From Bacteroidales bacterium (lineage in GTDB: Bacteria; Bacteroidota; Bacteroidia; Bacteroidales; UBA932), in contig JAFTBU010000026.1 of NCBI GenBank assembly GCA_017455065.1, positions 1 through 36,186 on the forward strand: DNA of 36,186 nt, in the 5' to 3' direction. The notes beneath the pieces were generated by a model, which was not told the origin of the DNA, searched no databases, and saw nothing but the letters and a program-made list of their open reading frames with translations. Positions 7,806-36,150 of the stretch are shown piece by piece. Position numbers and translations under genes: made by a program. Position 1 is the first letter of the stretch. Every line of letters begins with the position of its first letter.

Positions 7806-10421
7806 ATGACCTCAAAGGAAATCAGACAGCAGTTTCTGGACTTTTTCGCAGCAAAGGGGCACACGGTGGTCCCTTCTGCCCCCATGGTAGTCAAGAATGA
7901 CCCGACGCTCATGTTCACCAACGCGGGCATGAACCAGTTCAAAGATATATTCCTGGGCAACACAGCCCGCAAGTTCAACCGTGCGGCGGACTCCCAGAAG
8001 TGCCTCCGCGTGAGCGGCAAGCACAACGACCTCGAAGAGGTGGGACATGACACCTACCACCACCCCATGTTCGAGATGCTGGGCAACTGGAGCTTCGGCG
8101 ACTATTTCAAGAAAGAAGCCATCGACTGGGCATGGGAACTGCTCACCGAGGTTTACAAGATAGACAAGAACATACTCTACGCCACCGTCTTCGAAGGCTC
8201 CGAGGAGGACGGCACCCCCATGGACACCGAGGCCATGGAAGCCTGGCGCAAGCACCTTCCCGACGACCACATCGTCCTGGGCAACAAGCATGACAATTTC
8301 TGGGAGATGGGCGACACCGGTCCCTGCGGCCCTTCGTCCGAGATCCATGTGGATATCCGCAGCGAAGAGGAGAAGAAGGCTACCGGCCTGAGCGGCCGTG
8401 AGCTCGTCAACAAATCCGACCCCCATGTGATCGAGATCTGGAACCTGGTGTTCATGGAGTTCCAGAGGATGGCCGACGGCCACCTGGAGAGCCTCCCCGC
8501 CAAGAATATCGACACCGGCATGGGCTTCGAGCGCCTCTGCGCCGTGCTGCAGCAGAAAAACAGCAACTACGACACCGACGTGTTCACAGCCATGCTTGGC
8601 CGCATAGCCGAGCTCTCCGGACACAAGTACGGTGAGAGCGAAAACGTGGACGTGGCCATGAGGGTCATCGCCGACCACATCAGGGCCATCAGCTTCTCCA
8701 TCGCCGACGGACAGCTGCCCTCCAATGTCAAGGCCGGCTATGTGATCCGCAGGATCCTGCGCCGTGCGGTCCGCTACGGCTACACCTTCCTCGGCTTCAC
8801 CGAGCCCTTCCTCTGCCGCCTGGTGCCCCAGCTGATTGCCGACATGGGCGAGGCCTATCCTGAGATCAAGGCCCAGCAGAAACTTATCGAGAGCGTGATA
8901 CGCGAGGAGGAAATGGCCTTCCTTCGCACCCTGGACAGGGGTATCAAGCTCCTCGACGACTATATGGCCAGGAACGCCGAAGGCCGCGTCATCCCCGGAG
9001 TGGACGCCTTCGTGCTCTATGATACCTACGGATTCCCCATCGACCTCACCGAGCTCATCGCAGGTGAGAACGGCTACAAGGTGGACCTCGACGGCTTCCA
9101 GAAAGAGCTTGCCAAGCAGAAGGAGCGCGCCCGCAACGCCACCGCCAACGAATTCGGCGACTGGACGGTCTATGCCGAAGAGGAGGAGGTCCGTTTCACC
9201 GGCTACGACGTGACCCGCCAGGAGGGCGCCAGGCTCCTCAAGAGCCGCAAGGTGGTCCAGAAAAACAAGGAGATGCTCCAGCTCGTCTTCGACTGCACTC
9301 CTTTCTACGGAGAGATGGGCGGCGAGGTCGGTGACACCGGCACTGCCACTTCAGCCTCCGGCGAGGTCGTCAAGATCCTCAACACCGTCAAGGAAAACAA
9401 CCTCACCATCCATATCGCCGACCATCTTCCCGCCGACTGCGAAGGCGGGTTCACCCTCGAGGTGGATGCCGCCCGCCGTCAGAAGATAGCCGCCAACCAC
9501 AGTGCCACCCACCTCCTCGACCAGGCCCTCCGCGAAATCGTCGGCACCCATGTCGAGCAGAAGGGTTCCTTCGTCTGCGACAAATACTTCCGCTTCGACT
9601 TCTCCCATTTCGAGAAGCTCGGCGACGATACCATCACCAAGGTGGAGCACCGTGTCAATGAGATGATACGCAGCAACTTCCCTCTCGTCGAGAACCGTGA
9701 GGCCACCATGGAGGAGGCCAATGCCATGGGCGCCATCGCCCTCTTCGGAGAGAAGTACGGCGACCGCGTCAGGGTGGTCAAGTTCGGCCCCAGCGTAGAG
9801 CTCTGCGGCGGCTGCCATACCGCTGCCACCGGCAAGATAGGATACTTCAAGATTGTCTCCGAAAGCGCCATCGCCGCCGGCGTGCGCCGTATCGAGGCTG
9901 TCACTGGGGAAGAGGCTGAAACCATGGTGGACGCCCTACAGGAAGTGGTCCGCACCACCCGCGCCATGCTGGGCGGAGCTCCCGGACTCGCCGACGCCAT
10001 CCGCAAGATCATCGACGAGAACGACAGCTACAAGAAGCAGATCAATGAGATCGCCAAGGAAAAGACCCTCCGCCTCAAGGAGGCCCTGGTGAATGCCAGC
10101 GAGGAGATCAACGGCCACCGAGTCGTCAAGATCACCGGCGAGAGGGATATAGTGATGCTGCGCAATGCAGCCACGATGCTGCAGGCTGAGGCCGAGAACC
10201 TCATCGTCGCCGGGGCCGTGGTCTCCGGAGGCAAGCCCCAGCTGCTGCTGATGTACTCCGCCGACCTCGTCGCCGCGGGCCGCAACGCCGGAGCCGACAT
10301 CCGTGATGCCGCCAAGTTCATCCAGGGCGGCGGCGGTGGCCAGAGCGGCCTCGCCACTGCCGGCGGCAAGGACCTCTCCGGTCTCGACAAGGCTCTCGAA
10401 GCCATGATTGCCAAGATCTGA
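7806..10421 (+). CDS. alaS: Alanyl-tRNA synthetase
   Basis: This cytoplasmic class II synthetase charges tRNA-Ala with alanine. The 871-residue length is normal. The N-terminal catalytic core starts [14 protein letters not shown] and holds [15 protein letters not shown], followed by the tRNA-recognition region. The editing domain has [14 protein letters not shown] (the HxxxH zinc site) and [14 protein letters not shown], with Cys where many species have Thr, as is usual in Bacteroidota. The C-Ala domain ends with [15 protein letters not shown] good promoter lies directly upstream. Its stop codon overlaps the next ATG by one base, so it is transcribed and probably translationally coupled with the permease-Fmt gene. 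Confidence 0.98.
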
Positions 10422-12868
10422 TGAAAAGACTCGACAGGCTCATACTGAAGTCGTTCGTGGGACCGTTCTTCGCGATCCTGCTGGTGGTGATCTTCATCCT
10501 GATGCTGCAGCTGCTCTGGCTGTACGTCGATGAGCTTGTCGGAAAAGGTCTCGGTCTGCGGATCATACTGGAGTTCATGTTCTGGGGAGGGTGCACCTCC
10601 CTGCCTCTGGCCCTGCCTCTGGCGACACTGCTCTCATCGGTGATGACGATGGGGTCCCTGTCCGAGAACAATGAACTGATGGCCATGAAGGCGGCGGGCA
10701 TCTCCGTGCGCCGCGTCATGCTCCCCATCATGCTCGCTTCGCTGGTCATCAGCGTGGGCGCCTTCTTCGCCGGCAACGACCTGGTTCCCAAGGCCAACAA
10801 CGAGATCTATACCCTCAGGGCGGATATCCTGAAGACCAAGAAAGAGATCAAGATCCCGTCCGGAATCTTCTACGACGGTATCGAGGGCTACATCCTCAGG
10901 GTGGACGGCCAGAACAAGGAGACTGGAATGTTCTACGGGATGATGGTCTATGACCACAATTCCTCCCAGGGCAACACTTCCGTCACCATGGCCGACTCGG
11001 CCCTGATCACGATTTCCAAGGAAAAGGACTTCCTGATCTTCACCCTCTTCAACGGTACCAATTACAAGGAGGACAATCTGCGCAACTACTCCGACACCTC
11101 GATGAAGCTGCAGCGCATAGATTTCGACAGGCAGGAGCTCCGCGTGCAGCTGGACAACTACGCCTTCGAGAAATCCGACTCCGTGCAGTTCAGCGACCAG
11201 GCCAAGACCATGCCCGTCAAAGAGCTCCGCTACCACGCGGACTCCCTGCAGGCCCTGGCCGACAAGTCCAAGAAATCCCAGCTGGAGTATCTCCAGAAGG
11301 GACTATTCTTCCAGTTCAGCGACCAGCTCGACACGACCAAGCACTACGACTACAGCGCCCCCGTGTTCAAGGCGGACAATTTCCTGAAGGCCTCCAATCT
11401 CGAGGAAGAGAGGAACATGTACGCCCGCGCCCACGACATCATGGGACATTACGTGTCTTCCCTGATGACTTACAGGCAGAGCACCTACGAGTACTACTTC
11501 TACCTGCGCCGCTGCCTGGTCGAGCTGCTCAAGAAACTGGCCCAGGCCCTGGCCTGCTTCATCCTCTTCTTCATCGGCGCCCCGCTCGGGGCCCTGGTCC
11601 GGAGGGGCAAGATGGGTACGATGTTCATCGTGGCCGTGCTTTTCTTCGTGCTGTACTGGGTGGTGGACATCTCCGGTATCAAGCTCGCCACCGACGGAGC
11701 GATCAACGCCTACATAGGTGTGTTCATCTCGGCCCAGGTGCTGTTCCCCATAGGTATCTACATGACCTCACGCGCCGTGCACGACGCTGACATATTCAAT
11801 ACTGATTCGATGAAAAACTGGTGGAGAAAACTCAAGAGCCGCATCGCCGGCCTCTTCCATAAGCCGCGCATAGTATATATGGGTACGCCCGAGTTTGCCG
11901 TCGCACCCCTCGACAACCTGGTCCGCAAGGGCTACAAGGTGGTGGGTGTGGTGACTGTCGCCGACAAGCCCAGCGGCCGTGGTCTCAAGGTCAACATGAG
12001 CGCCGTCAAGCAGTACGCCGAAGCTCACGGCATCCCCGTGCTGCAGCCGCTCAAGCTCAAGGATCCCGAGTTCCTGGAGGCCCTCGCCGCCTGGAAGGCC
12101 GACCTCTTCGTGGTCGTAGCCTTCAGGATGCTGCCGGAGGAAGTCTGGAGGATGCCCAAGCTCGGCACCTTCAACCTCCACGCCGCCCTGCTGCCGCAGT
12201 ACAGGGGCGCCGCTCCTATCAACTGGGCCGTCATCAACGGGGAACACATCACCGGTGTCACGACCTTCATGATCGACAAGGACATCGACACCGGCGGCAT
12301 CATGCTCCGCCAGGAGAGCCGCATCGGACCCGACGACACCGCCGGAGACGTCCACGACCGCCTGATGGAGCTGGGCACCGCCCTGGTGGAGGATACCGTC
12401 GAGGGCCTGATCCAGCACAATCTCGAGTTGAGGGTCCAGCGTTCCTTCATCCAGGGCTCCGAGGTCCTGAAGAAGGCGCCGAAGCTCACCAGGGAGCTCT
12501 GCCACATAGATTGGGACGACACCACCGCTTCGGTATACAACCTCATCCGCGGTCTCAGCCCCTATCCCGCCGCATACACCGAACTTGTTCCCGCTTCCGC
12601 CGGGGAAGATGTTCCGCCGGTGGCGCTCAAGATATACGGCGCCGCCAAGATGGAGGGCGTGAGCGCCGCTCCCGGCACGGTGCTGAGCGACGGCAAGACC
12701 TGGCTCGCGATCGCCACATCCGACGGAGCCATCTCCCTGACCGACATCCAGATGGCCGGCAAGAAGCGGATGGACGTCAAGTCCTTCCTGCTGGGCTTCC
12801 GGGAGCCGGAGTCATATATCTGCACCAAGGGCACTTCCAAGGCCGAAATGGCCAAAGCCAGGGAATAA
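10421..12868 (+). CDS. fmt: LptF/LptG-family permease fused to methionyl-tRNA formyltransferase
   Basis: One uninterrupted 815-codon frame joins two proteins that are normally separate. Residues 1 to about 463 form a YjgP/YjgQ (LptF/G) lipopolysaccharide-export permease. It has three N-terminal membrane segments (about 12-33, 46-72, 88-110), a large periplasmic domain, the FFIGAPLGALVRRGKMG motif (about 383-398) and three C-terminal membrane segments. Residues 464-482 are a basic linker (MKNWWRKLKSRIAGLFHK). Residues 483-815 are a complete Fmt, which formylates Met-tRNA-fMet. The Fmt part has RIVYMGTPEFAV, the catalytic Asn585 and His587 in FNLHAALLPQYRGAAP, and Asp623 in DIDTGG. The Fmt half would sit on the cytoplasmic face. 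An internal ATG at 11810 could also yield a free Fmt with a short extension. The gene overlaps alaS by one base and thiN follows after 3 bases. Confidence 0.93.
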   Translation: MKRLDRLILKSFVGPFFAILLVVIFILMLQLLWLYVDELVGKGLGLRIILEFMFWGGCTSLPLALPLATLLSSVMTMGSLSENNELMAMKAAGISVRRVMLPIMLASLVISVGAFFAGNDLVPKANNEIYTLRADILKTKKEIKIPSGIFYDGIEGYILRVDGQNKETGMFYGMMVYDHNSSQGNTSVTMADSALITISKEKDFLIFTLFNGTNYKEDNLRNYSDTSMKLQRIDFDRQELRVQLDNYAFEKSDSVQFSDQAKTMPVKELRYHADSLQALADKSKKSQLEYLQKGLFFQFSDQLDTTKHYDYSAPVFKADNFLKASNLEEERNMYARAHDIMGHYVSSLMTYRQSTYEYYFYLRRCLVELLKKLAQALACFILFFIGAPLGALVRRGKMGTMFIVAVLFFVLYWVVDISGIKLATDGAINAYIGVFISAQVLFPIGIYMTSRAVHDADIFNTDSMKNWWRKLKSRIAGLFHKPRIVYMGTPEFAVAPLDNLVRKGYKVVGVVTVADKPSGRGLKVNMSAVKQYAEAHGIPVLQPLKLKDPEFLEALAAWKADLFVVVAFRMLPEEVWRMPKLGTFNLHAALLPQYRGAAPINWAVINGEHITGVTTFMIDKDIDTGGIMLRQESRIGPDDTAGDVHDRLMELGTALVEDTVEGLIQHNLELRVQRSFIQGSEVLKKAPKLTRELCHIDWDDTTASVYNLIRGLSPYPAAYTELVPASAGEDVPPVALKIYGAAKMEGVSAAPGTVLSDGKTWLAIATSDGAISLTDIQMAGKKRMDVKSFLLGFREPESYICTKGTSKAEMAKARE

Positions 12869-29213: not shown

Positions 29214-29243
29214 TTGTTTTTTCGTATTTATTGCATAGATTTG
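29214..29243 (+). promoter_or_regulatory. Promoter of the leader peptide-trpB2-paaK-ACT operon
   Basis: TTG (29214-29216) and TAGATTTG (29236-29243) match the Bacteroidota -33 and -7 elements with a 19-base spacer, the textbook distance. The leader-peptide ATG begins 6 bases after the -7 element, so the transcript should start at or within a few bases of the start codon. Confidence 0.8.
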
Positions 29244-29249
29244 CAGGTA

Positions 29250-29297
29250 ATGATACGCGTTTCTCATTTTTTCTTCTGGTGGCGTCTGGCTGGATAA
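29250..29297 (+). CDS. Leader peptide with Phe-Phe-Phe-Trp-Trp regulatory codons
   Basis: A 15-codon frame encodes MIRVSHFFFWWRLAG and stops with TAA at 29295-29297. Codons 7-9 are Phe (TTT TTC TTC, 29268-29276) and codons 10-11 are Trp (TGG TGG, 29277-29282). The WWR ending resembles the E. coli trp leader peptide, whereas the Phe run recalls the E. coli phe leader. The frame lies between a good promoter and an antiterminator/terminator pair, 107 bases before trpB2. Its role would be to sense charged tRNA-Phe and tRNA-Trp through ribosome stalling, not to act as a protein. It is too short for normal gene finders. Confidence 0.85.
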   Translation: MIRVSHFFFWWRLAG

Positions 29298-29355
29298 CCC
29301 GGGCAGACCGAAAGGTCGTGTGTCATTACGATAAGTAAGTTTAGACTGTCCGGGA
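29298..29355 (+). promoter_or_regulatory. Antiterminator stem of the trpB2-operon attenuator
   Basis: CCCGGGCAG (29298-29306), starting right after the leader stop codon, is complementary to CTGTCCGGG (29347-29355) over nine positions, one of them G-U. The second arm covers most of the terminator's left arm, so the two structures exclude each other. A ribosome at the leader stop would cover the first arm, whereas one stalled at the Phe or Trp codons would leave it free. Between the arms sits a small GACC-GAAA-GGTC hairpin (29306-29317). GTCTG (29284-29288) could pair with CAGAC (29304-29308) as a protecting hairpin. Confidence 0.78.
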
Positions 29356-29376
29356 TTCTGGGCGGTCGTTTTTTTA
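29345..29376 (+). terminator. Attenuator terminator before trpB2
   Basis: GACTGTCC (29345-29352) pairs with GGGCGGTC (29361-29368) over eight positions including two G-U pairs, with loop GGGATTCT, and is followed by seven T (29370-29376). It lies 29 bases upstream of the trpB2 start and downstream of the leader peptide, where a regulated terminator is expected; there is no plus-strand gene before it other than the leader. Confidence 0.8.
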
Positions 29377-29404
29377 TATTAGTAGTACCTTAAAAGTTAA
29401 GACA

Positions 29405-30769
29405 ATGAGACAGAAAAAGTATTTGCTCCCGGAGAGCGAGATTCCTACAGCATGGTTCAACATCCAGGCGATCATGCCCAACAAGCCTCTCCCCATCCTG
29501 AATCCCGCTACCAGGGAAGCCCTCAAGGCCCAGGATCTCTATCCCATCTTCTGTGAAGAGTGCGCCAACCAGGAACTCGACACTGTCAACGAGTGGATCC
29601 CCATCCCGGAGCCTGTCCGTGAGCAGTACGCCGCCTATCGCTGTACTCCTCTTGTCAGGGCATACGAGCTCGAGGAGGCCCTCGGCACCCCCGCTCATAT
29701 ATATTTCAAGAATGAAAGTGTCTCGCCCGCAGGTTCGCACAAGCTCAACTCAGCATTGGCCCAGGCCTATTATGCCAAGCAGCAGGGCATCACGAACATC
29801 ACCACCGAGACCGGCGCCGGCCAGTGGGGAGGTGCCCTCTCCTACGCCGCCAAGAAATTCGGCATCGACTGCGCTGTATATATGGTGAAGACCAGCTACA
29901 ACCAGAAGCCTTACCGTCGCAGCATCATGCAGACCTTCGGTGCGGCCATCACCCCTTCACCTTCGATGTCCACCCGTGCCGGCAAGGATATCCTGACTGT
30001 CAATCCCAATGACGGCGGCTCCCTGGGCACAGCCATTTCAGAGGCCATCGAGCTCGCTGTCTCCACCCCCAACTGCAAATACACCCTCGGCTCAGTGCTG
30101 AACCATGTGTGCCTCCACCAGAGTGTCATCGGCCTCGAAGCCGAGAAGCAGATGGAGATGACCGGAGAGTATCCCGACATCGTGATCGCATGCTTCGGCG
30201 GCGGCTCCAACTTCAGCGGCATCGCCTATCCTTTCATGCGTCACAACATCCAGGACGGCAAGAAGACCCGTTTCATCGCAGCCGAGCCTTCATCCTGCCC
30301 GAAACTCACCAGGGGCAAGTTTGAATATGACTTCGGCGACGAAGCCGGTCTCACTCCGCTCCTTCCCATGTACACCATAGGCCATACCTTCAAGCCGGCC
30401 AGCATCCACGCAGGCGGTCTCCGCTATCACGGCGCAGGTGTCATCATGTCCCAGCTGATGAAAGACGGCTTCATGGAAGCCCAGGATTTCGCCCAGACCG
30501 AGACCTTCAAGGCCGGCGTGCTCTTCGCCCAGACCGAAGGTATCATCCCCGCTCCCGAGTCCTGCCACGCCATCGCCTGCACCATCAAGGAAGCCCTCAA
30601 GTGCAAGGAGACCGGTGAGCAGAAGACCATACTCTTCAACCTCTCCGGCCACGGATTCGTGGACATGGGCGCATATGACCACTACCTCTCCGGTGAGATG
30701 CAGAATTATGTAGTAAGCGACGAGGAACTGGCCGGATATATCGCCAGCGCAGACGCACTCAACAAATAG
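29405..30769 (+). CDS. trpB: TrpB2-type tryptophan synthase beta chain
   Basis: This PLP enzyme condenses indole with serine to give tryptophan. The 454-residue length and motifs are those of the TrpB2 (long, stand-alone) class: SPAGSHKLNSALA with PLP-binding Lys113, ETGAGQWGGALSYAAKKF, and the phosphate-binding GGGSNFSG. TrpB2 enzymes typically work without close TrpA partnership, and no trpA or other trp gene is present here. The gene is preceded by the Phe/Trp leader attenuator and followed after 6 bases by the aryl-CoA ligase gene. Use of free indole from the surroundings is a plausible role (inference); serine or phosphoserine as the amino donor cannot be settled from sequence. Confidence 0.93.
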   Translation: MRQKKYLLPESEIPTAWFNIQAIMPNKPLPILNPATREALKAQDLYPIFCEECANQELDTVNEWIPIPEPVREQYAAYRCTPLVRAYELEEALGTPAHIYFKNESVSPAGSHKLNSALAQAYYAKQQGITNITTETGAGQWGGALSYAAKKFGIDCAVYMVKTSYNQKPYRRSIMQTFGAAITPSPSMSTRAGKDILTVNPNDGGSLGTAISEAIELAVSTPNCKYTLGSVLNHVCLHQSVIGLEAEKQMEMTGEYPDIVIACFGGGSNFSGIAYPFMRHNIQDGKKTRFIAAEPSSCPKLTRGKFEYDFGDEAGLTPLLPMYTIGHTFKPASIHAGGLRYHGAGVIMSQLMKDGFMEAQDFAQTETFKAGVLFAQTEGIIPAPESCHAIACTIKEALKCKETGEQKTILFNLSGHGFVDMGAYDHYLSGEMQNYVVSDEELAGYIASADALNK

Positions 30770-30775
30770 ACCGGC

Positions 30776-32086
30776 ATGATCTGGAACGGCAACAAAGAAT
30801 CCATGAGCCGGGAGGACATGCGTGCCCTCCAGGGCAGGCGTCTGGCGAAGATAGTCTCGTACGTGTATCACAACGTGCCTTTCTATCGCAGCAAGATGCA
30901 GGAGATGGATGTTTCGCCGGAGGATATCAGATCCATCGACGATATAGTCAAGCTCCCCTTCACTACGAAACAGGACCTCAGGGACAATTATCCTTTCGGC
31001 CTGCAGGCTGCGCCTGCGAGTGAGGTGGTGCGCATCCATGCATCGTCAGGTACCACGGGTAAGCCCACCATCGTGGGCTATACCCGAAAGGACCTGGAAG
31101 TGTGGAGCGAATGCATGTCCCGGTGCCTGGCCTCCTACGGGGTGACCCGGGAGGATGTCTTTTCCGTGGCCTACGGCTACGGCCTCTTCACCGGAGGCCT
31201 GGGCGTCCATTACGGAGTGGAGAACCTCGGAGCCTCCGTGGTCCCCACCTCCACCGGCAACACCGAAAAGCATATACGGCTCATAAAGGACCTCGGCATC
31301 ACCGGCATTGCCTGCACCCCTTCCTATGCCCTGCATCTGGCGGAGACCATGGAGAAGATGGGCATAGACAAATCTGAGCTCAAGCTCAGGGTGGGCGCTT
31401 TCGGCGCCGAGCCCTGGACAGAGAACATGCGCAAGGAGATAGAGTCCCGGCTCGGCCTCAAGGCTTTCAACCTCTACGGTCTGAGTGAGATCATGGGCCC
31501 CTGCGTGAGCTATGAATGCGAGTGCCAGAACCACTCCCATGTCAATGAAGACCATTTCTTCCCCGAAATCATAGATCCCGAGACCCTCGCCTCCCTGCCT
31601 TACGGGGATACCGGCGAACTCGTGTTCACCACCCTCACCAAGACGGGCATGCCCCTGCTGCGCTACCGTACCAGGGACCTCTGTTCGCTCGTGGACGAGC
31701 CTTGCGCCTGCGGACGCACCAACGTGCGCATGACCAGGATCCTGGGCCGCAGCGACGACATGCTCATCATCAGGGGTATCAATGTCTTCCCTTCACAGGT
31801 GGAGAGCGTCCTGCTCAGCATCTCCGAGTGCGCGCCTTACTACCGCATCATCGTGGACAGGGTGAACAATCTCGACACCCTCACCGTCCAGGTCGAGGTG
31901 CGCCAGGAATTCTTCTCCCAGGGCTTCGATACGCTCAGTCCTATCACCGCCCTCGAGAAGAAGGTGGCGGCCGCCCTGAAGAGCGTGCTCAGCATCTCGC
32001 CCATAGTCCAGGTCAAACAGCCCGGTTCGCTCGGAAGGGTGGACGGCAAGACCAAAGTAGTCACCGATCTTAGAGTCCTGAAGTAA
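30776..32086 (+). CDS. paaK: Phenylacetate-CoA ligase family (aryl-acetate-CoA ligase)
   Basis: This adenylate-forming enzyme would activate phenylacetate or indoleacetate to the CoA thioester using ATP. The 436 residues contain the AMP-binding loop SSGTTGKP (90-97), YGLSEIMGP, RYRTRDL, the hinge GRSDDMLIIRGINVFPSQVE, and a C-terminal GRVDGKTK with the catalytic-type Lys. Length is normal for PaaK. No ring epoxidase or other catabolic paa genes are nearby. Known chemistry in anaerobic gut and rumen bacteria, reductive carboxylation of arylacetyl-CoA by indolepyruvate:ferredoxin oxidoreductase, offers a biosynthetic role that fits the operon's Phe/Trp leader. Sits 1 base before the ACT gene. 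Confidence 0.9.
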   Translation: MIWNGNKESMSREDMRALQGRRLAKIVSYVYHNVPFYRSKMQEMDVSPEDIRSIDDIVKLPFTTKQDLRDNYPFGLQAAPASEVVRIHASSGTTGKPTIVGYTRKDLEVWSECMSRCLASYGVTREDVFSVAYGYGLFTGGLGVHYGVENLGASVVPTSTGNTEKHIRLIKDLGITGIACTPSYALHLAETMEKMGIDKSELKLRVGAFGAEPWTENMRKEIESRLGLKAFNLYGLSEIMGPCVSYECECQNHSHVNEDHFFPEIIDPETLASLPYGDTGELVFTTLTKTGMPLLRYRTRDLCSLVDEPCACGRTNVRMTRILGRSDDMLIIRGINVFPSQVESVLLSISECAPYYRIIVDRVNNLDTLTVQVEVRQEFFSQGFDTLSPITALEKKVAAALKSVLSISPIVQVKQPGSLGRVDGKTKVVTDLRVLK

Positions 32087-32087
32087 T

Positions 32088-32486
32088 ATGAAACAGTTAT
32101 CAGTCTTCCTGTCCAATGAATCCGGCACCCTGCTGAAGGTTCTGGACCTCCTCGGCGAAGCCGGCATCCAACTCTACGCCCTGAGCATAGCCGATACGGA
32201 TAGCTACGGCATCTGCCGTATGATATGCGACAAGCCCGACGAGGCCGACGCCCTGCTCATCAAGGCCGGCTACGCAGTGTCCGAGTCGGATGTGAGGGCC
32301 ATCAGGATCGGGGACAAGCCCGGTGCCGCGGCGGATATCATCAGGATATTCGCCCGGGAGCACCTGAGCATCGCCTATCTGTACACCTTCCTGTACGAGG
32401 GTGACCCCGTGCTCGTCTTCCGTACCGACGACAAGGAAAAGGCCAGCGCCATCATCGAGAGCAACAAGCTGGAAACCTTGGGTTAA
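32088..32486 (+). CDS. Tandem ACT-domain protein
   Basis: The 132-residue protein has two ACT folds (about 1-65 and 70-130): KQLSVFLSNESGTLLKVLDL begins the first, with GIQLYALSIADT, and AADIIRIFAREHLSIAYLYTF is in the second. ACT domains bind small ligands, most often amino acids. Proteins like this frequently follow paaK-type genes, and may sense Phe or Trp to modulate the ligase or oxidoreductase; no catalytic or DNA-binding part is present. It is the last gene of the leader-controlled operon. Confidence 0.88.
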   Translation: MKQLSVFLSNESGTLLKVLDLLGEAGIQLYALSIADTDSYGICRMICDKPDEADALLIKAGYAVSESDVRAIRIGDKPGAAADIIRIFAREHLSIAYLYTFLYEGDPVLVFRTDDKEKASAIIESNKLETLG

Positions 32487-32646: not shown

Positions 32647-34824
32647 ATGAGCAGGCTCAGATTTGACTGTCTGGAGAAGTCCTTCTCCAAGGCTCCCGTC
32701 GTGGTGGAAAGTCCCGGTAAACCGAGCGACTTTTTCGGCTGCAAGGTCTTCGACAAACCCAAGATGTACAAATATCTGTCTTCCGCCGCCTACGCACAGA
32801 TGGAGGCGGTGATGGAAGGAGAGGCATCCCTGGAGCCTTCTGTGGTGAATGAAGTCGCAGAGGGCATGAAGAGGTGGGCCCTGGAAAACGGAGCCACCCA
32901 CTACACCCATTGGTTCTCGCCCCTCACCGGCACCACCGCCGAAAAGCACGACAGCTTCATCGAAAAGGACGGCAAATCCGGAGTCATCGAGGAATTCTCG
33001 GGCAAACTGCTCAGCCAGCAGGAGCCGGACGCTTCCTCATTCCCCAACGGAGGCATACGCAGCACCTTCGAGGCACGCGGCTACAGCGCCTGGGACCCGA
33101 CCTCCCCGGCCTTCATCATGGATGACGTGCTCTGCATCCCTACCGTCTTCATTGCCTACACCGGCGAAGCATTGGACTACAAGGCACCCCTGCTGAAATC
33201 GGTCGCCGCAGTGGACAAGGCCGCCACGGCCGTCTGCCGCCTCTTCGACAAGAGTGTGCACGGCGTCACCACCAACGTGGGCTGGGAGCAGGAGTATTTC
33301 CTGGTGGACTACGACCTCGCCATGGCCCGCCCGGACCTGGTGATGACCGGCCGCACCCTGATGGGCCACGAAGGCGCCAAGAACCAGCAGCTGGACGACC
33401 ATTATTTCGGAGCCATCCCCGAGAGGGTCGCCGCTTTCATGACCGACCTGGAGATAGAGTCCCACAAGCTCGGCATCCCCGTCAAGACCTGCCACAACGA
33501 AGTCGCACCCAACCAGTTCGAGGTGGCTTCCATCTATGAGAAATGCAGCCTTTCGATAGACCACAACATGATCCTGATGTCGCTGATGAAGAAAGTCGCG
33601 CGCAGGCATGGTCTGATGGTGCTGCTCCATGAAAAGCCCTTCAAAGGCATCAACGGATCCGGCAAGCACTGCAACTGGTCGCTCAACACCGACACCGGAG
33701 CCCTTCTCACCGCGCCCGGCAAGACCGACAAGGACAATCTCCGCTTCATCACCTTCGTGGTGAACATACTCAGCGCCATCTACCGTCACAACGGCCTGCT
33801 CAAGGCCAGCGTGATGAACGCCTCCAACGAGCACAGGCTCGGGGCCAATGAGGCGCCTCCCGCGATCATCTCCAGTTTCCTGGGCTCCGACATCTCGTCG
33901 GTGCTCGACCATATGGAGCAGAGCGAAGAGTTCGTGAGGCTCCTGAGCAAGAGGGAGATCAAGCTCAGCATCCCCCAGATACCCGAGCTCCTCATTGACA
34001 ATACCGACCGTAACCGTACCTCTCCCTTCGCCTTCACCGGCAACCGCTTCGAATTCAGGGCGGTGGGTTCCGAGGCCAACTGCTCCGCCGCCATGATAGT
34101 GCTGAACACCGCCGTCGCGGAGCAGCTCCAGATCTTCAGGCAGGAAGTCGAAGATATGGTGGAGAAAGGCGAGGAGAAGGAATTCGCCATAGAGAAAGTA
34201 CTGCGCAAGTACATCAAATACTGCAAGCCCGTCCGTTTCGACGGCAACGGCTATTCCGACGAATGGAAGGCCGAAGCCGCCCGCCGCGGCCTGGACTGCG
34301 AGACCAGCTCCCCGCTGCTGTACGACCGCTACCTCGACGAGGACAGCGTGAAGATGTTCTCCGCGCAGGGAGTGATGGGGGAGAGCGAGCTCCGCGCCCG
34401 CGACGAGATTAAGTGGAGCACCTACACCAAGAAAGTCCAGATCGAAGGCCGTGTGCTCGGCGACCTTGCCGTCAACCACATCATCCCCATCGCGACCGCC
34501 TACCAGAGCCGCCTGCTGGACAATGTCCTCAAGATGGAGACCGCGTTCGGCAAGGAGGAAGGCGACAGCCTTTCCAAGGAAAATCTCGACTGCATAAGGC
34601 TCCTGGCCGGGCATATCTCCGCCATACGCAAGAAAGTGCTGGAACTGGTGGATTGCCGCCGGCATGCCAATGTCATCACCTCCGAGAGGGAGAAGGCCAT
34701 AGCCTACCACGACAACGTCGCTCCCATGATGGATGAGATACGCTATCACATCGACCACATCGAACTGATGGTGGACGATGAGCTCTGGGCTCTGCCGAAG
34801 TACCGCGAACTCCTTTACATCTAG
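32647..34824 (+). CDS. glnN: Glutamine synthetase type III
   Basis: The enzyme joins ammonia and glutamate to make glutamine, using ATP. The 725-residue length and dissimilarity to GSI mark it as the large GSIII form first known from Bacteroides fragilis. Metal and substrate motifs are visible: VGWEQEYFLVD (Glu214/Glu216), HNEVAPNQFEVA, and KPFKGINGSGKHCNWSLNT, then EANCSAAMIVLNTAVAEQ. The C-terminal part is helical, as in other GSIII. A promoter element and an inverted repeat lie upstream. An aminotransferase gene follows after 6 bases, so amino-group capture and transfer may be expressed together. Confidence 0.97.
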   Translation: MSRLRFDCLEKSFSKAPVVVESPGKPSDFFGCKVFDKPKMYKYLSSAAYAQMEAVMEGEASLEPSVVNEVAEGMKRWALENGATHYTHWFSPLTGTTAEKHDSFIEKDGKSGVIEEFSGKLLSQQEPDASSFPNGGIRSTFEARGYSAWDPTSPAFIMDDVLCIPTVFIAYTGEALDYKAPLLKSVAAVDKAATAVCRLFDKSVHGVTTNVGWEQEYFLVDYDLAMARPDLVMTGRTLMGHEGAKNQQLDDHYFGAIPERVAAFMTDLEIESHKLGIPVKTCHNEVAPNQFEVASIYEKCSLSIDHNMILMSLMKKVARRHGLMVLLHEKPFKGINGSGKHCNWSLNTDTGALLTAPGKTDKDNLRFITFVVNILSAIYRHNGLLKASVMNASNEHRLGANEAPPAIISSFLGSDISSVLDHMEQSEEFVRLLSKREIKLSIPQIPELLIDNTDRNRTSPFAFTGNRFEFRAVGSEANCSAAMIVLNTAVAEQLQIFRQEVEDMVEKGEEKEFAIEKVLRKYIKYCKPVRFDGNGYSDEWKAEAARRGLDCETSSPLLYDRYLDEDSVKMFSAQGVMGESELRARDEIKWSTYTKKVQIEGRVLGDLAVNHIIPIATAYQSRLLDNVLKMETAFGKEEGDSLSKENLDCIRLLAGHISAIRKKVLELVDCRRHANVITSEREKAIAYHDNVAPMMDEIRYHIDHIELMVDDELWALPKYRELLYI

Positions 34825-34830
34825 TAAGCC

Positions 34831-36150
34831 ATGAGGGTGTTTTCCGAAGAACTGATGTCCCGCGCCGCTGCAGCCTGCAACATAAAGGACTTCAGGGCAG
34901 CATCCATTATGGAGACCTCACAGGCCTCCTCCTGGCTCGAGAAAGAGACAGGGATACCATTCATCCACCTGGAGCTTGGGTCCCCCGGTTTCAGTCCCAA
35001 TCCCTGGGGCGTGGCGGCCGAGAAAGAGGCTCTGGACCTGGGCTATGGAGCCCAGTACCCGCCTCTGGGGGGCCTGCCCAAGGCCCGTCAGGCAGTGTCC
35101 CGCTTCCTGAAATCCTTCCTGGACATAGAGCTGCCAGCCGATTGCTGCATGATCACATCCGGTTCCATGCAGGGTTCCCTGGTGTCTTTCATCTCATTGA
35201 CCCAGAGGGTCCCCGGAAAGGACAAGATTCTTTTCCTCAATCCCTGTTTCTCCTCCCAGCGCAACCAGCTTTCCATGCTGGGTGTAGGATACCGGGCCGT
35301 CGAGGAATACGGCTGCCGCGGTGAGGCCCTCGTCGCCAGGATAGGGGAGGAACTCTCCCGGGGCGACATCGCCGCATTGATATACTCCAACCCCAGCAAT
35401 CCCGCGTGGACCTGCCTGGAGGAGAGTGAGCTGAAGGGGATAGCCGCGCAGTGCGAACGCTATGACACCATTCCCATCGAAGACCTGGCGTACTTCGGGA
35501 TGGACTTCCGCCACGAGGGCTACGGCACCCCCGGCAAGGCACCCTATCCTCCCACCATCGCCCGCTATACCTCCCGCTTCGTGCTGCTGCTGTCCTCCTC
35601 CAAGATATTCTCCTTCGCGGGGCAGAGGGCTGCTGCAATGTGCATAGGGGAGCCATTGGCAAGGGAGCATTCTCCCGCGCTGGCCCAGCGCTACCACGGC
35701 ATCGGGGAGTTCGCCCATACGGTCGAGGCCGACCTCATCGACCTGATGTCCTGCGGCACTGCCATGACGGTGCAGTACGCATTCGCCCGCATGCTGGAGC
35801 TCAGCTGCGAGGGGGTGATAGATTTCGTCGGCGACACGGCCGAATACGGACGCAGGGCCGCCAGGATGAAGGAGATATTCCTCCGCCATGGCTTCAGCGT
35901 AGTCTATGACCGGGATCTCAGCGCCCCCACGGGGGACGGATTTTTCTTCACCCTGGGCTATCCCGGGATGAGCGGCGCCGAGCTGGCATCGGAGCTGGTC
36001 GCCTACGGCGTGGCGGTGGTGAACCTCAAGGCTTCGGGCAGCGTGCGCGAAGGGGTGAGGATATGCTCGAGCCGTATCAGCGGCTCCCAGTTCGATGTCC
36101 TGAAGTCCAGAATGTCGGATTTTGCTGAAGACCACCCTTCAGCCCGCTGA
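34831..36150 (+). CDS. PLP-dependent class I/II aminotransferase
   Basis: The 439-residue fold-type I aminotransferase has no N-terminal GntR DNA-binding domain. Family signs are LGSPGFSPNPWG and GYGAQYPPLGGLPKARQAV near the start, ITSGSMQGSLVSF, IYSNPSNPAW, a PIEDLAYFGMDF segment, and SSSKIFSFAGQR with the probable PLP Lys. Its organisation suggests a MocR-like or aromatic/alpha-aminoadipate-type aminotransferase, but the substrate is not determinable. Position directly after glnN and close to the trpB2-paaK operon makes an aromatic 2-oxo acid a testable candidate. It ends just before the window edge. Confidence 0.85.
   Translation: MRVFSEELMSRAAAACNIKDFRAASIMETSQASSWLEKETGIPFIHLELGSPGFSPNPWGVAAEKEALDLGYGAQYPPLGGLPKARQAVSRFLKSFLDIELPADCCMITSGSMQGSLVSFISLTQRVPGKDKILFLNPCFSSQRNQLSMLGVGYRAVEEYGCRGEALVARIGEELSRGDIAALIYSNPSNPAWTCLEESELKGIAAQCERYDTIPIEDLAYFGMDFRHEGYGTPGKAPYPPTIARYTSRFVLLLSSSKIFSFAGQRAAAMCIGEPLAREHSPALAQRYHGIGEFAHTVEADLIDLMSCGTAMTVQYAFARMLELSCEGVIDFVGDTAEYGRRAARMKEIFLRHGFSVVYDRDLSAPTGDGFFFTLGYPGMSGAELASELVAYGVAVVNLKASGSVREGVRICSSRISGSQFDVLKSRMSDFAEDHPSAR

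Follow-up and report, generated by a model that had tools for sequence, protein, structure and literature searches.

A close described counterpart of the locus considered here is the attenuator of the E. coli trp operon, catalogued in Rfam as Trp_leader (RF00513). In the E. coli pheA and pheST leaders, runs of Phe codons precede a terminator and the genes that follow are biosynthesis or synthetase genes; the ilvGMEDA and thrABC leaders show in addition that one leader can read more than one end product. The present locus shares with pheA and pheST a Phe run before a terminator, but the codons there are for Phe only and here for Phe and Trp. With ilvGMEDA and thrABC it would share a multi-product leader, although the products are branched-chain amino acids or Thr and Ile in those operons and an aromatic pair here. 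Some attenuators in Bacteroidetes/Chlorobi were reportedly predicted by Vitreschak et al. in 2004. Attenuators of trp genes in Actinobacteria, as described in the available text of PMC1262725, combine two or three UGG codons with alternative hairpins before the genes; both features are found in our locus, but the phylum and the genes differ and the Actinobacterial leaders have Trp codons only. The uORFC-13-1 motif before aroF in Acholeplasma comprises a predicted uORF with at least one Phe beside a terminator (PMC8632094, accessible portion), again much as here, although gene and phylum are different and that portion makes no mention of Trp.

According to the part of PMC2965389 (2010) that is available, leader systems had to its authors' knowledge been shown only in Proteobacteria and Actinobacteria, to which that study added Firmicutes. 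Short ORFs recalling attenuation leaders have been noted in B. thetaiotaomicron in a paper whose main text does not use the word tryptophan (PMC7366714), and a 2010 survey of attenuators in bacteria by Lopatovskaya and colleagues is cited in the accessible text of PMC4833913. Our own literature search, which is weak evidence given that it took in few subscription journals, turned up neither a description of leaders before trpB2 in Bacteroidota nor one of a leader mixing Phe and Trp codons. The attenuators of Vitreschak and of Lopatovskaya probably work by the same general mechanism. The attenuation mechanism is known, and its presence in the Bacteroidota has probably been predicted already; what appears to be new, as judged from sequence comparison, is a mixed Phe and Trp leader that was apparently gained twice together with paaK. 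The original prediction for this DNA had known of no such mixed leader in Bacteroidota, a remark to be tempered, since leaders with Trp runs before trpB2 occur in other classes of the phylum as well.

The window, by which we mean the whole 36,186-nt stretch of DNA analysed, carries on its forward strand a gene for a TrpB-like PLP enzyme, trpB2 (29405-30769; NF009057, 689.9 bits against a cut-off of 366), a paaK-like gene for a phenylacetate-CoA ligase (30776-32086; TIGR02155, 562.8 bits, below the cut-off of 646.3) and a gene for an ACT-domain pair protein (32088-32486; PF19571). From the sequence in front of trpB2 and its modelled folding, we consider it likely that these genes lie behind a ribosome-mediated attenuator of the E. 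coli trp kind, one that reads Trp and, probably more weakly, Phe.

A promoter of Bacteroidota type can be read directly from the forward strand, with a −33 element TTG (29214-29216) and, 19 bases after it, a −7 element TAGATTTG (29236-29243); the consensus for the primary sigma factor is given as TTTG / TAnnTTTG in the available text of PMC7366714. The position of the −7 element predicts a start site at about 29247. The leader ORF on the same strand, MIRVSHFFFWWRLAG followed by TAA, extends from an ATG at 29250 to 29297 and contains three Phe codons (TTT TTC TTC, 29268-29276), a run that tracks paaK across relatives, and two adjacent Trp codons (29277-29282). The Trp codons are conserved in relatives, and the locus thus has the short ORF with end-product codons 5′ of the operon that is typical of trp attenuators. 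Because the frame remains open for another 50 codons 5′ of this ATG, the start codon was assigned from the position of the promoter. Both the promoter, with its 19-base spacing, and the short Phe/Trp frame before trpB2 had featured in the original prediction, and direct reading confirms them.

Six nucleotides separate the end of the −7 box from the leader ATG in the window, and five and four do so in two related loci (L002 and L140, respectively). TAnnTTTG is found within 60 nt in 63 of 135 leaders and ends 4-11 nt before the start codon in 19 of those 63; the exact motif is absent from leaders of the FFFWRAWFWQ clade. Going by the distance from −7 box to ATG, the leader transcript may be nearly leaderless. 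5′ UTRs of less than 10 nt make up only about 3.7% in B. thetaiotaomicron (PMC7366714, accessible text).

Between the leader and trpB2 lies an intrinsic terminator on the forward strand, a hairpin at 29344-29367 with a 10-bp stem, a 4-nt loop and an energy of −14.8 kcal/mol, followed by seven T at 29369-29375 as read from the sequence. Directly 3′ of the leader stop is the antiterminator 5′ arm CCCGGGCAG (29298-29306, +), the partner of which, CTGTCCGGG (29346-29354, +), is part of the terminator 5′ arm, so that the two helices exclude one another; all nine positions of the duplex form standard pairs, one of them G-U. A nine-position pairing had been proposed earlier with a partner at 29347-29355, which is off by one, and the terminator with seven T sharing its DNA with that partner was proposed correctly. 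Folding adds an element absent from that proposal, a predicted protector (anti-antiterminator) hairpin with its 5′ arm GTCTGGCTGG within the leader ORF (29284-29293, +) and its 3′ arm CCGGGCAGAC (29299-29308, +) overlapping the antiterminator arm. Of 200 dinucleotide shuffles of the region 29240-29390, all but one fold less well than the native sequence (z = −3.15).

A search of the window against Rfam returned no family at gathering score, and in 14 related loci tRNA was the sole match, with no leader family. Relaxed matches in Rfam (RcsR1, L20_leader and two more) fell far below cut-offs and were taken as chance. Like the E. coli trp attenuator, the locus has a short Trp-coded leader, a protector (1:2), an antiterminator (2:3) and a terminator (3:4), and its stall, stop and no-ribosome logic is alike in silico. 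Unlike it, the window has Phe as well as Trp codons and no Rfam match at gathering score, and it precedes a trpB2-led salvage operon rather than trpEDCBA, with a Bacteroidota promoter and perhaps a nearly leaderless start.

To model the effect of ribosome position, ribosome-free RNA was folded, the ribosome's edge being placed 13 nt 3′ of the first nucleotide of the codon in its A site. With the terminator 5′ arm and loop out and its 3′ arm not yet out, the antiterminator has a probability of 0.21 when no ribosome is present. Placing the A site on any of Phe7, Phe8, Phe9, Trp10 and Trp11 raises this to 0.86-0.88, and Arg12 likewise gives 0.88; the value drops to 0.66 at Leu13 and is 0.00 for every position between Ala14 and the stop, both included. 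At the earlier stage, with the terminator arm still to emerge, the protector has a probability of 0.98 with no ribosome, which in silico would give termination without translation, and of 0.99, 0.85 and 0.51 with the ribosome on Phe7, Phe8 and Phe9, falling to 0.16 on Trp10 and 0.00 on Trp11. By these values, a Trp stall would be enough to release the antiterminator arm, but after a Phe stall the protector would still have to be displaced. Once complete, the terminator prevails in all states (0.56 on Phe7, 0.74-1.00 elsewhere), the antiterminator then having a probability of 0.11-0.39 in Phe stalls versus 0.01-0.02 in Trp stalls; in the Trp11 stall, the terminator stands at −26.3 kcal/mol against −21.7 kcal/mol for an enforced antiterminator. 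Since equilibrium favours the complete terminator, the choice between helices must be kinetic.

In the switch that we propose, RNA polymerase would start just 5′ of the leader ORF, and where Trp-tRNA or Phe-tRNA is scarce the ribosome would stall at codons 7-11. A stall on the Trp codons would remove the protector hairpin, and one on the Phe codons would merely destabilise it. The freed arm at 29298-29306 would pair with 29346-29354, the terminator would not be formed in time and trpB2-paaK-ACT would be transcribed. With Trp and Phe plentiful, a ribosome at the stop codon would cover 29298-29306 and the terminator at 29344-29367 would end transcription; with no ribosome, the protector would hold 29298-29306 and the same terminator would again end transcription. 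The E. coli trp-type logic first suggested for this leader appears to hold in its anatomy, its modelled switching geometry and its conservation.

Relatives of TrpB2 were drawn mostly from rumen and gut Bacteroidales assemblies, plus further genomes, and gave 245 trpB2 loci, of which 239 were kept (four with short upstream DNA and two duplicates were dropped). Under a strict definition (an ATG-started ORF of 8-40 codons containing TGGTGG, within up to 350 nt 5′ of trpB2), leaders precede 61 of the 69 genes whose products are at least 80% identical to TrpB2, the window's own included. At 70-80% identity the count is 14/75, at 60-70% 19/52 and below 60% 16/43. Random windows from the same loci satisfied the definition in 98 of 8,885 cases and shuffles in 18 of 2,390, about 1%, and conservation in 61/69 loci against such controls excludes a chance origin of the leader. 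By eye, the eight misses in the closest band include a GTG-started leader (L042) and a locus with neither leader nor terminator (L094). In the remaining six (L082, L083, L008, L015, L028 and L032) the last 230 nt hold, again by eye, only the terminator of the upstream gene and no leader; these are apparent losses of the attenuator.

A first detector found terminators at 104 of 114 leader loci, a count in which the window figures twice; it overlooked hairpins separated from their T-run by a gap, as in the window. Among the accepted 104, three hairpins weaker than −8 kcal/mol (L072, L121 and L237) and one far downstream (L043) are doubtful. A relaxed detector recovered nine of the remaining ten, L052 still being without. 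Trp-run leaders with terminators are also present before trpB2 in other classes of the phylum (L129, L135, L136, L137, L138, L228 and L230). Their presence suggests that this type of leader is either old in the phylum or arose repeatedly.

The stretch from Trp run to terminator pairs with the first half of the terminator better than shuffles do in 78 of 104 loci (p ≤ 0.05). The antiterminator's own partner beats at least 95% of foreign terminators in 48 of 100 loci, against an expectation of about five (30/51 at ≥80% identity, 3/15 at 70-80% and 15/34 below 70%), with mean duplex energies of −19.9 kcal/mol for own and −13.0 kcal/mol for foreign partners. The arms vary by lineage, being CCCGGGCAG/CTGTCCGGG in the window, CTGTAAGTC/GACTTACAG in L004 and GTCGCAAG/CTTGCGAC in L085, and would thus seem to differ between lineages yet tend to remain complementary. 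In 23 close relatives sharing one leader type (group A), the terminator stem covaries: 94.6% of cells are paired and 7 of 12 pairs have changed on both sides, which none of 500 shuffles equalled, although 36 of 500 were as high in number of pair types. The antiterminator helix of the same 23 relatives is near-invariant and gives no covariation. An alignment of relatives had been suggested as a check on conservation of the Phe/Trp run and on compensating stem changes; comparison of relatives bears out the Trp codons and terminator covariation, finds the Phe run only together with paaK, and lends no covariation to the group A antiterminator.

Sequestration loss on going from a Trp stall to the stop has a median of 0.30 across 130 loci (0.10 when the spacers are shuffled), and 64 of the 130 show a loss above 0.3; as the loci are related, the p-value computed for this difference is not a true probability. 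For the 14 leaders with an FFF run the median change is 0.11 versus 0.12 when shuffled, and it exceeds 0.3 in four. Ten of these 14 belong to a second FFF clade, in which FFF, Trp codons and terminator are present and an exclusive antiterminator sharing the terminator 5′ arm, seen in the window, is not clear. These ten leaders, of the form FFFWRAWFWQ or FFFWRTWFWQ (L172, L173, L181, L183, L184, L306-L309 and L311), are strongly conserved in the codons after the Trp codons and perhaps have a different switching geometry.

For the relation between the Phe run and paaK, a looser definition was used (two Trp separated by no more than four residues; ATG, GTG or TTG start), the random-window and shuffle control belonging to the strict definition. 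The 245 distinct loci include 231 with enough downstream DNA. Here paaK adjoins trpB2 in 11, and all 11 leaders have FFF and at least two Trp; the other 220 loci comprise 117 with a leader, none of them with FFF, and 103 without. The Phe run is thus found with its Phe-linked gene in 11/11 leaders and without it in 0/117, as expected if the Phe signal is functional; Fisher's test gives p = 4e-16 on the assumption that loci are independent, which they are not. Three further FFF loci (L306, L309 and L311) are on contigs that end inside trpB2, and their genomes have paaK on a different contig, next to a fragment of trpB2; in L305, a trpB2-paaK locus, the contig is cut before the leader. The leader forms in the FFF loci are unlike one another (FFFWWRL, FFFWRAWFWQ and FFFWWWQM), and 101 of 113 adjacent-Trp leaders have at most one Phe in the four positions just ahead of the Trp run. 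Across 14 leaders, TTT accounts for 23 and TTC for 20 of the 43 Phe codons within FFF runs, synonymous change only; such variation would be an indirect sign that the leader is translated, and Trp, with its single codon, allows no equivalent comparison. Of the Phe and Trp sensing in the original prediction, the Trp part is the better supported; Phe is not general in the leader family and tracks paaK.

A PaaK tree of 55 rows places the 12 trpB2-linked genes in two groups kept apart by starred branches, the window's three arising from among mainly iorAB-linked paaK genes and the other nine from a distant branch. On a TrpB2 tree of 112 leader-bearing rows (at least 60% identity), paaK and FFF need three changes each. 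The association appears, from these trees, to rest on two well-supported origins, three on the best tree, and the two independent contrasts on supported branches agree but are too few for significance. At order level, adjacency of trpB2 and paaK was seen by eye, besides the window, only in G667, which is L140 and already counted. No aromatic leader precedes a separate paaK (0/29 upstream regions) or iorA (0/12 informative regions; of 18 loci, 14 matched iorA, and in two of these 14 the contig ended too early). In the window's own genome FFFW is found six times and the reversed control pattern four times, so that FFFW is at about chance level; of the other places, two are in frames of 71 and 29 amino acids and the rest in frames of at least 237. 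We lean, by a little, towards a history in which paaK-ACT joined a Trp-only trpB2 operon at least twice, from different paaK sources, and the leader gained a Phe run each time to become a two-input switch on a nearly leaderless transcript. Pairing of Phe and Trp in the leader was apparently gained together with gene capture. If this is true, leader peptides are an evolvable codon register of operon content.

Against the Phe half of that history stands the possibility, which we regard as real if rather unlikely, that the attenuator senses Trp alone and that its Phe codons carry no signal of their own, forming just a U-rich stretch or a spacer ahead of the Trp codons. The Trp codons are the conserved part, no or one Phe preceding the Trp run in the 101/113 leaders noted above, the FFF run has just two or three origins, and the genome has a prephenate dehydratase yet no TrpE- or TrpA-type match. 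The protector also persists with the ribosome on Phe7 (0.99) and Phe8 (0.85), for which reason we give the two-input model less weight, and this Trp-only explanation more, than we otherwise would. Sensing of Trp alone does not, however, account for FFF in 11/11 paaK loci versus 0/117 others across unlike leader forms, nor for Phe codons that vary synonymously only. Furthermore, once the 5′ arm of the terminator is out, the antiterminator is as probable in Phe stalls as in Trp stalls, and with the whole terminator out Phe stalls retain it at 0.11-0.39 against 0.01-0.02.

Arrest peptides keep specific residues, which in the TnaC type lie after Trp and hold the peptide in the exit tunnel. A TnaC-like peptide sensing free Trp or indole would suit a short leader before an operon that probably uses indole, but we judge it very unlikely: by eye, the residues after the Trp run are not conserved and vary by lineage (RTCSS, QPLQL, RLAG, HSSVRSV), and runs of two to four Trp with lineage-specific alternative helices fit codon-starvation attenuation. 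That the hairpin is a plain intergenic terminator beside a chance ORF, with trpB2 transcribed from a start of its own below 29376, is less probable still; six of 69 close relatives do, by eye, have a terminator only and no leader, but leader ORFs in 61/69 against about 1% of controls, and the preference for own over foreign arms in 48/100 loci, are hard to square with it. Last in probability we place a metabolite-binding riboswitch or protein-dependent attenuator to which the short ORF is irrelevant. The region folds well, but no Rfam family matched the window at gathering score and only tRNA matched in 14 related loci, and across lineages it is the helix sequences that change and the Trp codons that stay. 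Attenuation by a ribosome translating the leader remains our preferred reading.

The genome containing the window (2.1 Mb in 64 contigs, 96.68% complete) has no match to Chorismate_bind (TrpE-type) or TrpA, families that both match in 14/14 control genomes, and Trp is therefore presumably salvaged; TrpB2 would make it from external indole. A prephenate dehydratase gene is present, adjoining an ORF that we take to be chorismate synthase, and given this enzyme Phe supply may not depend on the trpB2-paaK-ACT operon. On another contig an iorA-iorB pair, its IorA match (505.2 bits) below the family cut-off of 650.9, begins about 70 nt after the preceding gene. PaaK and IorAB could together convert phenylacetate or indoleacetate to Phe or Trp. 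Reductive carboxylation of aryl acids of this sort in rumen bacteria is known from the old literature. The proposed attenuator suggests that bacteria lacking TrpE and TrpA may obtain amino acids from indole and phenylacetate. Attenuation of the classic form is well studied in the Proteobacteria; here it would be extended to a salvage operon in the Bacteroidota, one of the main phyla of gut and rumen, in which little of the RNA regulation has been mapped. That one switch occurs with a Phe run in some operons and without it in others, according to their gene content, amounts to a natural comparative experiment, and makes directly testable whether leader codons follow operon products.

Three further observations concern neighbouring or related genes. 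A second PaaK-like gene (46% identity) is encoded in the window's own genome, on the reverse strand of a contig other than that of trpB2 (G000 contig C58, 6528-7796). Within the window, the operon is followed after a gap of about 160 bases by genes for glutamine synthetase III and an aminotransferase on the same strand (32647-36150, +). Further upstream, an 815-amino acid ORF (10421-12868, +) fuses an LptF/LptG permease domain with a complete methionyl-tRNA formyltransferase-like protein (Formyl_trans_N and C).
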